In this document: one piece after another, positions 1 through 3,337 of the stretch
Layout: the number at the start of each line of letters is the position of its first letter
How positions within the stretch are numbered: the stretch's first letter is position 1
Origin: an uncultured Alphaproteobacteria bacterium
Lineage (GTDB): Bacteria > Pseudomonadota > Alphaproteobacteria > Caulobacterales > Parvularculaceae
Length of the DNA stretch: 32,365 bases
Assembly: GCA_902826095.1 (NCBI GenBank)
Contig: CADEDN010000037.1
Span: 1 to 32,365 of the forward strand
Reading direction: 5' to 3'
Made by a program: the position numbers and the translations under genes
Notes under the pieces: model-generated
What the model saw: only the letters and a program-made list of their open reading frames with translations
Database searches by the model: none
Told to the model about the DNA's origin: nothing

Positions 1-420
1 ATCCCCCATGTTATCCCCCACCTTATCCCACACCTCGAAACCTCGCTTAGGATCGTCCTCAGTCGGAGCGCGGAGAGGCGACTGAGTGCACCCGTTGCTC
101 GGCGGCTTCGACGATGGCGCGCGGCGCGTATGGGCCAGTTGGGTAGGCTCTTGCGCGTCGACGTGAGACGCCGGGCCTTGAGGCCTATTCAACGCTTTCC
201 GGGGTAACAGCCGGCCGGCGGGGCTGATACGCCCGGCGAACACGACCGAAACGCCATAGCGCCTGAAGCGAGAGCTAAGGGCGCGCCGCGCGGGACGTGA
301 ACCGTCCCCAAAAAAATTAGACTGGATGGTCCGCGTCCCGCGCACCCTCTCCTTTCTATCGGACTAAAGGCGAACTGCCGGGAAGGTGCTTCCGCGGAGG
401 GGGGCGGCGATTTGCGCGGG
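1..420. other. Non-coding stretch upstream of serS
   Basis: No reading frame with plausible coding character covers this stretch on either strand. The first 30 bases hold three closely spaced TTATCCC-like units (the first is cut by the window edge). Around 294-311 there is a short GGGACG...CGTCCC hairpin followed by an A-run rather than a T-run. The segment was compared by eye with the conserved cores of tmRNA, RNase P RNA, SRP RNA and the cobalamin riboswitch, and none was found. It may contain a structured RNA or be a decayed intergenic region; I cannot assign it. Confidence 0.4.
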
Positions 421-469
421 GACTAGGGACTAGGGACTGGGGACTAGGGATTAGGGACTTGGGATTAGG
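421..469. repeat. Tandem heptamer array (GACTAGG type), copy 1
   Basis: Seven head-to-tail 7-bp units run without gaps: GACTAGG twice, GACTGGG, GACTAGG, GATTAGG, GACTTGG, GATTAGG. The units are the same family and orientation as the array at 2124-2157 and inverted relative to the one at 2538-2565. Similar heptamers are known in cyanobacteria as short tandemly repeated repetitive (STRR) sequences. No four-helix-bundle gene accompanies this copy, so it is either a solo array or what remains of a lost cassette. Confidence 0.85.
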
Positions 470-511
470 GAAGAAGGAATTGGAATTCGCGCCGACCACG
501 ACACTGCAGGC

Positions 512-630: not shown

Positions 631-729
631 GCGGCGGGGCGCCGGCCTGGATCATCCATTGCTCGCCGGCGGAGATTTGGAATCGGCGCTGCTTTGCCGC
701 GGCGCGAACACTGATTATAGGTGCCCGCC

Positions 730-2142
730 ATGCATGATCTGAAAGACATCCGCGAGAACCCCGACCGCTTTGACGCGGGGCTCGCCCGCCGCGGCCTCGG
801 GCCCCTTGCGGCCGACATTCTGGGTCGCGACGCCAGGGCGCGGGGCCTGACGACGCGCCTCCAGGAATTGCAGACAAAGCGCAACGCCGCCTCCAAGGCG
901 ATCGGCGCCGCCAAGGGCCGGAAAGACGAGGCGGAAGCCGCGCGGCTGATGGCCGAAGTCGAGAGCGTCAAGACGGAAATGCCAAGGCTCGAAGCGGAAG
1001 AGGCGGCGCTGAAGAAAGAGCTCGACGACATCCTCGGCGCGATCCCGAACCTCCCCGCCGCCGATGCGCCGGACGGCAAGGACGAGACGGAAAATGTCGA
1101 AAAGCGGAAATGGGGCGAACCCAAACGCCTCAACAACGCGAAAGAACATTTCGACATCGGCGAGGCGATGGGCCTCATGGACTTCGAAACCGCCGCCAAA
1201 ATGTCCGGCGCGCGCTTCGTGCTCTTGAAAGGCGCCCTCGCGCGGATGGAGCGCGCGATCGCCAATCTCATGCTCGACATCCATACGGGCGAGTTCGGGT
1301 ATCAGGAGTGTTCGCCGCCATTGATGGTCCGTGATGAAGCTGCCTTTGGAACTGGGCAGTTGCCTAAGTTCAAAGATGATTTGTTTACTGCCGCTGATAT
1401 GAGGAAGCGAAAGGAACTGCTCGAAGCTGGGCTCGCCGGCGCCGACCAAAAATATGATTCGGCGAACCCTGGACCAGATCGCGTCATTCGCGCCGTCAAT
1501 GAAACGTTGGAATCGGCGCAGACGAAGGAACAATTCTGGCTCATCCCCACCGCCGAAGTCTCGCTCACCAACATCGTCGCCGAAAAGATCCTCGACGCTG
1601 AAGACCTGCCGTTGCGCTTCACCGCCTGGACGCCGTGCTTCCGGTCGGAGGCGGGCGCCGCCGGCAAGGACACGCGCGGGATGATCCGCATGCACCAGTT
1701 CTCGAAAGTCGAACTCGTCTCGATCACGGCGCCGGAAAAGTCGAACGAAGAACACGAGCGGATGACCGCTTGCGCCGAGACGATTCTGAAAAAGTTGGAG
1801 CTGCCGTTCCGCACGGTCGCGCTTTGCACCGGCGACATGGGCTTTGCGGCGAAGAAGACCTATGACATCGAGGTCTGGCTGCCGGGTCAGAACCGCTATC
1901 GCGAGATTTCCTCCTGCTCGAACTGCGGCGACTTCCAGGCGCGGCGGATGAAGGCGCGCTTCCGGAAGAAGGGCGAGAAGGGAGCCGAGTTCGTTCACAC
2001 ATTGAACGGCTCCGGCCTCGCGGTCGGACGGACGTTGGTCGCCGTGCTCGAGAATTATCAGCAGGAAGACGGATCGGTCGCCGTGCCGGCGGCGCTGGCT
2101 CCGTATATGGGAGGGCTCAAGACGATTGGGACTGGGGACTAG
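730..2142 (+). CDS. serS: Serine--tRNA ligase (class II aminoacyl-tRNA synthetase)
   Basis: Charges tRNA-Ser with serine in the cytoplasm using ATP. The first ~110 residues form the long charged coiled-coil arm that contacts the tRNA. The catalytic core shows the class II motifs: [11 protein letters not shown], motif 2 around [20 protein letters not shown], and motif 3 [19 protein letters not shown] near the C-terminus. I chose the ATG at 730 ([11 protein letters not shown]) over the in-frame GTG at 721 because an AGGTG lies about 7 bases upstream. The protein is 470 residues, longer than the usual ~425-430. The excess is a segment at about residues 221-268, between LPKFKDDLF and FWLIPTAE, where homologues have only a few residues; the DNA there is visibly richer in A/T. 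The stop codon TAG lies inside a heptamer repeat, so the last few residues (TIGTGD) are repeat-encoded. Confidence 0.95.
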
Positions 2143-2157
2143 GGACTGGGGACTGAG
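2124..2157. repeat. Heptamer array, left arm of the four-helix-bundle cassette
   Basis: About 4.7 units of GACTGGG/GACTAGG run from the last codons of serS through its stop codon. The array reads in the opposite orientation to the one at 2538-2565, so the two form an inverted repeat around the small gene 2175-2570. Confidence 0.85.
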
Positions 2158-2174
2158 AATTTGGAAAGCGAGCT

Positions 2175-2570
2175 ATGGGCGTCATCGCTTCACACAAGGA
2201 CCTGGAGGTCTGGCGGCTCTCGATGTCGCTGGCGAAGGGCGTCTACAAATTGACGGCCAAGTTTCCAAAAAGCGAGGAATTCAGAATGACATCCCAGCTG
2301 ATCCGAGCCGCGATTTCGGTCCCGGCAAATATCGCCGAGGGAAATTCGCGCGGGTCGAGAAAAGACTACGCCCATTTTGTCAGCATCGCGCGAGGCTCGA
2401 TCGCGGAAGTTGAAACGCTCTTGCTGTTGTCAATAGATATCGGTCTTGCGCCGGAGTCTGACTTTTCAGAGCTGATGGAGTCGACGGCCAGCGTAGGACG
2501 CATGCTCAGCGCGCTGCGAGCGAAGTTGAGTGCGGCCAGTCCCCAGTCCCCAGTCCCCAGTCCCCAATGA
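2175..2570 (+). CDS. Four-helix-bundle protein (23S rRNA intervening-sequence / S23 family)
   Basis: A 131-residue protein beginning MGVIASHKDLEVWRLSM, with the family signatures FPKSEEFRMTSQLIRAA, SVPANIAEGNSRGS and FVSIARGSIAEVETLL. This family (the group that includes IVS-encoded proteins and is related to DGR Avd proteins) forms a compact basic four-helix bundle; its cellular role is not established. The last ten residues ([10 protein letters not shown]) are encoded by the right-hand heptamer array, and the stop codon TGA overlaps the surE start as ATGA, so surE is probably translationally coupled to it. It sits between serS and surE, which are adjacent in many alphaproteobacteria, and is bracketed by inverted heptamer arrays, suggesting arrival as a small cassette. 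Confidence 0.9.
   Translation: MGVIASHKDLEVWRLSMSLAKGVYKLTAKFPKSEEFRMTSQLIRAAISVPANIAEGNSRGSRKDYAHFVSIARGSIAEVETLLLLSIDIGLAPESDFSELMESTASVGRMLSALRAKLSAASPQSPVPSPQ
2538..2565. repeat. Heptamer array, right arm of the four-helix-bundle cassette
   Basis: Four exact AGTCCCC units followed directly by AATGAGA. The ATG of surE starts two bases after the last unit, and the array also codes for the tail of the upstream protein. Orientation is opposite to the copies at 421-469 and 2124-2157. Confidence 0.85.
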
Positions 2571-3337
2571 GAATTCTTTGCACCAATGACGACGGCGTCC
2601 ACGCGAGAGGGCTCGAAAGCCTCGTCGCGATCGCGCGCGCGCTTTCCGACGACGTCTATGTCGTCGCGCCGCATGAAGAACAGTCGGGCGCGGCGCGGGC
2701 GCTGACGCTCGCCAATCCGATCCGCGTGCGCGAATATGATCCGAGGCGATTTTCCGTGTCCGGAACGCCTTCCGACGCGGTGATGATGGGGGTGCAGAAG
2801 ATCCTCGTCGACAAACGGCCGGATCTCATCCTCTCCGGCGTCAATAACGGGCAGAATCTCGCCGAGGACGTGACGGTGTCGGGAACGATCGCCGGCGCCT
2901 TTCAGGGGATGAGCCTTGGCGTCCCCTCGATCGCCTTGTCGCTAGCGCGGCTCAGCCGGGAAAAGGCGCGGTGGGCGACGCCGGAGAAACACGCGCCGTC
3001 GATCATCCGCAAGCTGCTCGCCGCCGGCTGGCCCTCCGACGTCGTCATCAACATCAATTTCCCGGATCGCGATCCGGACGCCGTCGCCGGCGTCGAGGTG
3101 ACGACGCAGGGCCATCGCGACGATTTCAAGCTCTTCATCGAGGAGCGGCAGGACCCTCGGGGCGGCAAATACTACTGGTACGGGTATGAGGGGACGCTCT
3201 CAAACCCGCCCGAGGGCGTCGATCTCCGGGCGGTTTACGACGGGCGGATCTCGATCACGCCGCTGCATCTCGCGCTGACGCACGAGGATGCGCGAAAACG
3301 CCTCGCGGGCGCGTTTGGAAGTGATAAGAAGGAGTGA
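2567..3337 (+). CDS. surE: 5'/3'-nucleotidase SurE
   Basis: A metal-dependent phosphatase acting on nucleoside 5'- and 3'-monophosphates; surE genes are linked to survival in stationary phase. The 256-residue length is typical. The metal site is visible: NDDG at residues 7-10, the Ser in APHEEQSGAAR near residue 40, and the SGVNNGQNLAEDVTVSGT segment at about 90-107. The start MRILCTNDDG is the standard family start, and its ATG overlaps the TGA of the small upstream gene. The usual ribosome-binding region is replaced by heptamer repeats, so initiation probably depends on coupling with the upstream gene. No pcm gene follows; the next gene is the LysM/M23 lipoprotein. Confidence 0.95.
   Translation: MRILCTNDDGVHARGLESLVAIARALSDDVYVVAPHEEQSGAARALTLANPIRVREYDPRRFSVSGTPSDAVMMGVQKILVDKRPDLILSGVNNGQNLAEDVTVSGTIAGAFQGMSLGVPSIALSLARLSREKARWATPEKHAPSIIRKLLAAGWPSDVVININFPDRDPDAVAGVEVTTQGHRDDFKLFIEERQDPRGGKYYWYGYEGTLSNPPEGVDLRAVYDGRISITPLHLALTHEDARKRLAGAFGSDKKE

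Follow-up and report, generated by a model that had tools for sequence, protein, structure and literature searches.

A small gene bracketed by mutually inverted arrays of a 7-nucleotide repeat lies between serS and surE in the stretch of DNA that we analysed (the window, 32,365 nucleotides), and the resulting cassette appears to be a DNA element of a kind not described before, one that spreads between adjacent genes. In the loci we compared, the arms bracket the gene, their 7- or 8-nucleotide unit tracks the lineage of the encoded protein, and related species differ in whether a clean junction holds the element. We favour, with moderate confidence, the reading that a G-rich array, a small gene and an inverted C-rich array together make up a self-spreading DNA element of minimal form, served by a cognate protein that is not itself an enzyme. 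This brings together two old orphans: the S23/23S rRNA intervening sequence/four helix bundle family, a widespread one whose function is not known, and the plentiful heptamer repeats of bacterial genomes, for which years of observation had given no cause.

Table 1 Features at and near the serS–surE junction of the window
Feature	Position	Strand	Description
serS	721..2142	+	last codons (GTGD) and stop TAG inside left array
left arm	2127..2154	+	four heptamers GGGACT(G/A), G-rich strand on top
small gene, 131 aa	2175..2570	+	PF05635/TIGR02436 four-helix bundle protein
right arm	2538..2565	+	four heptamers AGTCCCC, reverse complement of left arm
surE	2567..3337	+	ATG overlaps small-gene stop (ATGA)
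solitary heptamer array GGGACTA	418..483	+	within dispersed repeat; not part of cassette

The earlier note on this DNA had described two inverted arrays around one gene of the 23S-IVS family, and indeed the best ungapped inverted match between the arms scored 25, compared to a maximum of 12 among 5000 random window pairs of similar spacing (starts beyond base 3000). TRF placed the left array at 2128–2155 and the right array at 2536–2566. The left array does provide the serS stop (TAG at 2140–2142), the right array encodes the last ten residues of the small protein, and the small-gene TGA and the surE ATG overlap, all as first proposed; the gap between the right array and this ATG, however, is one base rather than two. 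The placement between serS and surE is not, as had been thought, without damage, because the last SerS residues are encoded by the array and the host gene is thus slightly altered.

The small protein belongs to the PF05635/TIGR02436 family by curated cut-offs as well as by fold. It scored 128.6 bits against PF05635 (23S_rRNA_IVP, cut-off 33.8), the sole Pfam match on the gene, and 121 bits against TIGR02436 ('four helix bundle protein', cut-off 24), while two hypothetical-protein models and the Avd model of NCBIfam (the latter with 21.6 bits, cut-off 80) remained below cut-off. An AF2 model (AlphaFold, 13 genus sequences; mean pLDDT 93.3) predicted four helices at residues 7–27, 38–59, 62–88 and 98–120. 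This model resembled 2gsc (TM-score 0.74–0.80 by query length) and 2rld, and structures of Avd, a protein that forms a five-bundle assembly, were more distant matches (4dwl and 8ub7; TM-score 0.59–0.72 by query length, Foldseek E 0.04–0.25). The best solved relative, 2gsc (XCC0516), is a Xanthomonas campestris protein, and the title of its paper describes five assembled bundles. The description of the protein as basic holds for the window (predicted pI 9.1) and is common yet not universal among relatives, 87 of 139 of which have a pI above 8.

To see how far the arrangement extends, we scanned for relatives with a 13-sequence alignment and took the best 80 of at least 569 as named loci. Period-7 arrays scoring at least 9 were found in 105 of the 160 flanks of these best 80 of at least 569 relatives, compared to 6 of 150 control windows placed ~700 nt away, and arrays of period 7 or 14 lay on both sides at 52 of the 80 loci versus 1 of 70 control pairs. 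Other periods between 3 and 21 showed a clear rise in the flanks only at 8, 16 and multiples of 7. Within the same best 80 of at least 569, left arms matched their own right arms with a mean inverted score of 17.2, compared to 8.0 for foreign arms, and the loci with both arms came from 12 named phyla; both archaeal loci and the single loci of Balneolota, Deinococcota and Kaiseribacteriota were below the arm threshold. When the set was widened to 139 distinct loci, leaving out the window and any duplicates, both arms were above threshold at 89, one arm at 34 and none at 16; some of these 16 have degenerate arms by eye, and L089, L142, L180 and L181 have none. In general the polarity is shared, with a G-rich left arm in 90 of 95 loci and a C-rich right arm in 84 of 90, and the left units are diverse (64 different among 95 loci). 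Because 7 is not a multiple of 3, an array whose unit holds a stop codon stops all frames; this stop-codon idea proved weak, since 53 of 95 left units hold one and shuffling would give 42.8.

The family is also found on plasmids, with matches in 30 plasmid records. We examined 11 copies, two of them near-identical (L160 and L161); among the ten distinct copies, arrays pass the threshold on both sides in nine and on the right only in L169. Their insertion sites include one between two ribonucleotide reductase genes. At three loci on cyanobacterial plasmids (L162, L166 and L169) the element lies inside CRISPR-Cas operons, twice between cas6 and cas4 and once between cmr2 and cmr3. The idea of phage cargo was rejected, as the family had no match in 50,697 phage records; IMG/VR gave 11 loci. 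Separately, in three loci from three phyla (L071, L123 and L128) the element apparently splits one and the same protein-coding gene, which we take to be methylase-like.

All five family genes of the window genome adjoin heptamer arrays, each with its own heptamer (GGTTAGT, GGGACTG, CAATGGG, GCAGGTT and GGGAATC). The other four thus do not show the lack of arrays that, by the earlier note, would have spoken against the cassette; three of them have both arms at threshold, and the fourth (L004) has a right arm above threshold and a degenerate left one. Similarly, each of the 13 other family genes in the six gene-bearing genomes of the genus is flanked by one arm or two, eight of them by both (L001, L003, L005, L027, L028, L029, L033 and L034). 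Within the genus, all 6 gene-bearing genomes and none of the 3 gene-free ones had arrays of the pattern GGGAHTN; in the whole family including the genus, 10 of 22 gene-bearing genomes had them, compared to 5 of 40 gene-free genomes. The reversed control pattern gave 18 matches versus 119 for GGGAHTN in G000, 7 versus 32 in G003 and 5 versus 0 in G031, and at most 2 in the remaining genomes.

Empty serS–surE junctions, which the earlier note had looked to relatives for, do exist. In the closest relative (L036, SurE 88% identical) the serS stop overlaps the surE start with nothing between, and a tblastn search with the window protein (E 1e-5) found no family gene at the junction in 27 SurE loci from 26 other genomes, six of these loci being ones in which serS was not seen upstream. 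A congener (G002) has a short gene-less inverted pair of GGCAGTA heptamers directly before the surE ATG (L039, 59–178), on a contig that ends on the serS side. Furthermore, at a Hyphomicrobiaceae locus (L066) a family gene that has another unit lies immediately before a surE-like start, and the gene upstream is, by eye, apparently serS; the junction may have been hit twice, in the window and in L066.

Occupied and empty sites could be compared in larger numbers at one Mesorhizobium junction, where the small gene lies between genes that we take to encode an acyl-CoA dehydrogenase and, downstream, a hydroxyisobutyrate dehydrogenase. A 1401-base stretch of one such locus was queried against 146 genomes; 33 matched over the full length, and the others, among the matches listed, mostly matched with the two flanks alone. 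The 69 junctions that we compared (30 + 39) comprised 27 clean empty sites with 30–34 nt between the aligned gene ends, 33 full-size elements, eight shortened, N-gapped or short-pair copies, and one other palindrome. This last, L255, is an unrelated palindromic insert in place of the cassette, with 86 nt between the genes. The insertion position is after the upstream stop and before the downstream ribosome-binding site, and no target-site duplication was evident at this junction, where the flanks have diverged and the arms erode into them. Occupancy required 13 changes on a quick flank tree, 7 of them forced by the starred branches, with L262 scored as shortened though its gene is complete and L280 as empty though it has a short array pair; the near-sister pairs L212/L242, L264/L277 and L215/L255 differ at the junction. 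Thirty-one of the 33 full elements have reading frames of 120–122 codons, and the median dN/dS of these 31 frames was 0.078 (454 pairs, after 11 outside the dS range were dropped) compared to 0.055 for the flanking gene. The small protein is under purifying selection. Homologous exchange of flanks together with loss can also produce the patchy pattern in Mesorhizobium. Together, the occupied, empty and gene-deleted junctions make up a Mesorhizobium data set.

Both the sequence and the register of the unit go with protein lineage. With one threshold applied to periods 4 to 13, clear arms were found in 139 of 167 loci, with a unit of 7 nt in 116, 8 nt in 22 and 9 nt in one (L211, in which periods 7, 8 and 14 gave no clear array). 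On a tree of the 131 proteins with at least 95 residues, a tree with few columns and many weak forks, the 7/8 register changed 7 times, compared to 16.3 after shuffling. Mesorhizobium genomes contain several gene lineages, each bearing its own unit: the 7-mers TAGGCAG, TAGCGAA and GTGAATA, and the 8-mers GGGCAGTA, GGGGAGTA and GAATTGAG, with some mixing of two G-rich 8-mers within elements. Among pairs at different sites, which are mutually non-independent, the mean heptamer similarity was 3.56/7 below 35% protein identity (n=119), 4.84/7 at 60–70% (n=209) and 5.36/7 at 70% or more (n=11). Three pairs of proteins that are 76–83% identical and lie at non-homologous sites have the same or a similar unit, sharing 7/7 letters in L192/L203, 6 in L170/L193 and 5 by script in L164/L208 (by eye the same array). 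Because 23 of the protein pairs at least 70% identical have a common flank and 11 do not, movement would be rare or old; of these 11, a fraction of 0.45 agree in at least 6 of the 7 unit letters, and in L163/L166 the agreement falls to 4. The stricter idea that the gene imposes 7-mers was rejected, since intact genes with 8-mer arms exist.

Copies that have lost the gene bear on the same question. L257, L258, L259 and L261 have a common internal deletion in a gene of the TAGGCAG lineage, as judged by eye and by blastn. Among the deleted copies, L257 and L260 keep 7-mers, both arms of L258 consist of GGGCAGTA 8-mers, both arms of L261 of GGGGAGTA 8-mers, and the left arm of L259 is a 6-mer run; L256 has assembly gaps only. 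In the L258 genome (G177) the right arm of a resident family gene contains GGGCAGTA units, and in the L261 genome (G126) the left arm of one contains GGGGAGTA units, a match that is not very telling because both 8-mers are common in Mesorhizobium (each in 16 of 19 genomes, and both in G177 and in G126). Two short pairs from distant species, L279 (7-mer) and L280 (8-mer), by eye resemble the unit of a resident gene; both were counted as putative derivatives of this Mesorhizobium element. Non-7 left arms were found in 4 of 8 disrupted or short copies (including L256, L279 and L280) versus 0 of 33 full elements (Fisher 0.0007), or in 3 of 6 versus 0 of 33 when L279 and L280 are left out (0.002), and these p-values are optimistic because the gene-deleted copies are related, four of them having one deletion. 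Alternatively, the arrays could have been rewritten by recombination between dispersed arrays, or by slippage in the G run after gene loss.

Gene-less pairs also occur elsewhere in the window genome: of five inverted period-7 pairs in 400 kb, one encloses the gene, and the other four are gene-less with spacers of 15–57 nt; inverted pairs of periods 5, 6, 8, 9, 10, 11 and 13 were absent from the same 400 kb. No inverted pairs were found in 596.7 kb from four gene-free genomes, or in 200 kb of G036 around a gene-bearing locus with weak arms. G101, a genome with no detectable family gene, yet gave 7 and 19 matches to arrays of two 8-mers (GGGCAGTA and GGGGAGTA), so the idea that arrays need a resident gene was rejected in its strict form. 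Across 19 genomes the enrichment of units in those with the cognate lineage was borderline (p 0.057 and 0.052).

The arms can also enclose more than the small gene. At L026 (1391–2504), between two sulfate adenylyltransferase genes, presumably cysD and cysN, they hold the small gene and a second gene of 214 aa, the tail of which is encoded by the distal inverted arm; by eye L030 has the same layout. The second protein of L026 had no Pfam or PADLOC match and the window protein likewise had none in PADLOC, which led us to reject membership in a defence system.

The proposal that this is a mobile or self-spreading cassette, and neither an insertion sequence nor a MITE, is therefore supported, with movement read from patchy occupancy and clean empty sites. 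A self-spreading unit further fits related genes that have the same or a similar heptamer at non-homologous sites, the gene-less inverted pairs in the same genome, and the two-gene cassette within the arms. We hypothesize that the four-helix-bundle protein recognises the unit cognate to it when the arms are folded into a DNA hairpin or an RNA stem, that it might keep the unit in register, and that it might help host replication or repair enzymes to copy arm-framed DNA into the gaps between genes. Cutting and joining would be best assigned to host replication or repair acting on the hairpin-forming arms; the gene-less pairs could be non-autonomous derivatives that rely on the protein in trans, and any gene trapped between the arms would travel with them. 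The idea can be tested directly, in that each protein should bind its own unit. Several observations weaken the self-spreading reading. We know of no catalytic domain in the PF05635 family, and in the loci examined we saw no transposition event, no nuclease or other enzyme and no target-site duplication, nor is there an RVT_1 partner (below). G101 has arrays without a detectable gene and the cognate enrichment is borderline, 34 of the 139 loci have one clear arm and 16 have none, and the archaeal, Balneolota and Deinococcota loci miss the arm threshold. The evidence from loss of register is weakened by the non-independence of the four deleted copies and by L257 and L260, which keep 7-mers.

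A broader proposal, which we advance tentatively as a possibility, is that these cassettes form a pan-bacterial class of self-spreading elements in which a non-enzymatic four-helix-bundle protein sets the sequence of the arrays and their 7- or 8-nucleotide register. It would do so both in cis and in trans, and an array could then be converted where it stands to the unit that belongs to a different protein of the same genome. If true, this would name a source for many unexplained heptamer repeats in bacteria.

An immobile alternative is that the gene is a vertically inherited resident whose arms act as a regulatory RNA stem in cis (in mRNA processing, protection or autoregulation), and that it became patchy by loss and homologous recombination. 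The strong purifying selection would be expected of such a gene, as would the flank common to most of the closest pairs, and in the folded RNA of strand 2100–2590 the paired arms form the closing stem of a stable structure that contains the gene (z -4.99); in the window and in Mesorhizobium they abut the upstream stop codon and sit just before the downstream start. We nevertheless regard this alternative as unlikely, because the same or a similar unit accompanies related genes at sites that are not homologous, four gene-less inverted pairs lie in 400 kb of the window genome, the unit changed in both arms together in two gene-less copies, and a second gene can be enclosed by the arms.

It seems to us quite improbable that the element instead works at the level of RNA, like the intervening sequences of 23S rRNA, with arms that pair, cleavage by RNase III, and insertion of the RNA followed by reverse transcription. 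The protein family is the one found in rRNA intervening sequences, for which the accessible text of PMC4990558 reports excision by RNase III, and its fold recurs in Avd, a retroelement component. However, the RVT_1 domain was found in none of nine genus genomes, six of them gene-bearing, which led us to reject a reverse-transcriptase partner there, and Rfam, rRNA included, had no match in 20 other, hand-picked loci (9 of the 16 without clear arms among them), on which ground we rejected rRNA insertion for these loci. We give still less weight to slippage as the maker of the arrays and quasi-palindrome correction as the cause of their inversion, with the gene merely present in the same tolerant intergenic sites; this strikes us as very improbable. 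Template switching would fit the joint change of both arms, and, in the accessible parts of PMC4692102 and PMC4679880, heptamers are over-represented in many bacterial genomes with no known protein. Against slippage stand the matching of arms to their own partners, register and unit following the protein lineage, the strong association with the gene, and the lack of inverted pairs of the other periods in the 400 kb.

Among known systems, insertion sequences encode a transposase, whereas Pfam and NCBIfam gave four-helix bundle matches for the cassette, and a MITE would not carry the intact gene that the cassette does; only the short gene-less pairs are MITE-like. Diversity-generating retroelements combine Avd with a reverse transcriptase, and despite the common fold the small protein differs in its low score on the Avd model and in the lack of RVT_1 in genus genomes. 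The 23S rRNA intervening sequences with an S23 ORF (PMC4990558) share the family by name (S23/PF05635) and resemble the cassette as elements of ~430 nt with the gene inside; the window cassette, in contrast, lies between two protein genes and has tandem arrays as arms. Nearest in its working is REPIN/RAYT, which in the accessible text of PMC3116915 likewise has a protein gene that is single-copy and lineage-specific and lies next to a short-repeat family of its own, a repeat class for each gene, and inverted pairs dispersed as miniature elements. There, however, the RAYTs are tyrosine (HUH-type) transposases and the REPs are palindromes (PMC3116915), whereas the cassette has an all-helical four-helix bundle without a known active site and tandem 7- or 8-mers, and so we do not count it as a member; dispersed inverted pairs do exist, and the enrichment of units with their cognate gene is borderline. 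Conceivably, the rRNA intervening sequences and the Avd proteins are particular forms of one broader class of elements.

Heptamer repeats themselves have a longer history, as in the STRR of cyanobacteria. The accessible text of PMC4692102 describes GGGAATC in Xanthomonas and GGGGA(C/T)T in Nostoc, with 186 GGGAATC repeats and 70 inverted pairs in Xanthomonas campestris, and that of PMC4679880 describes TAACTGA in Beggiatoaceae. These are of the same heptamer kind as our arms, down to the convergent inverted pairs of Xanthomonas, and differ in that the accessible parts of both reports (PMC4692102, PMC4679880) draw no link to the PF05635 family. According to the same partial texts, heptamer repeats were generally not seen in association with mobile elements (PMC4692102), and a repeat-binding protein might itself be the mobile element, a speculation in which none is named (PMC4679880). 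In the open-licence PMC literature we found no text that joins the PF05635 family with heptamer repeats.

Finally, the stretch of the window at 25–638, which contains the solitary GGGACTA array, recurs in part with 94–97% identity at the starts of two other contigs, C48 (L015) and C46 (L014), and is probably a dispersed repeat that breaks the assembly.
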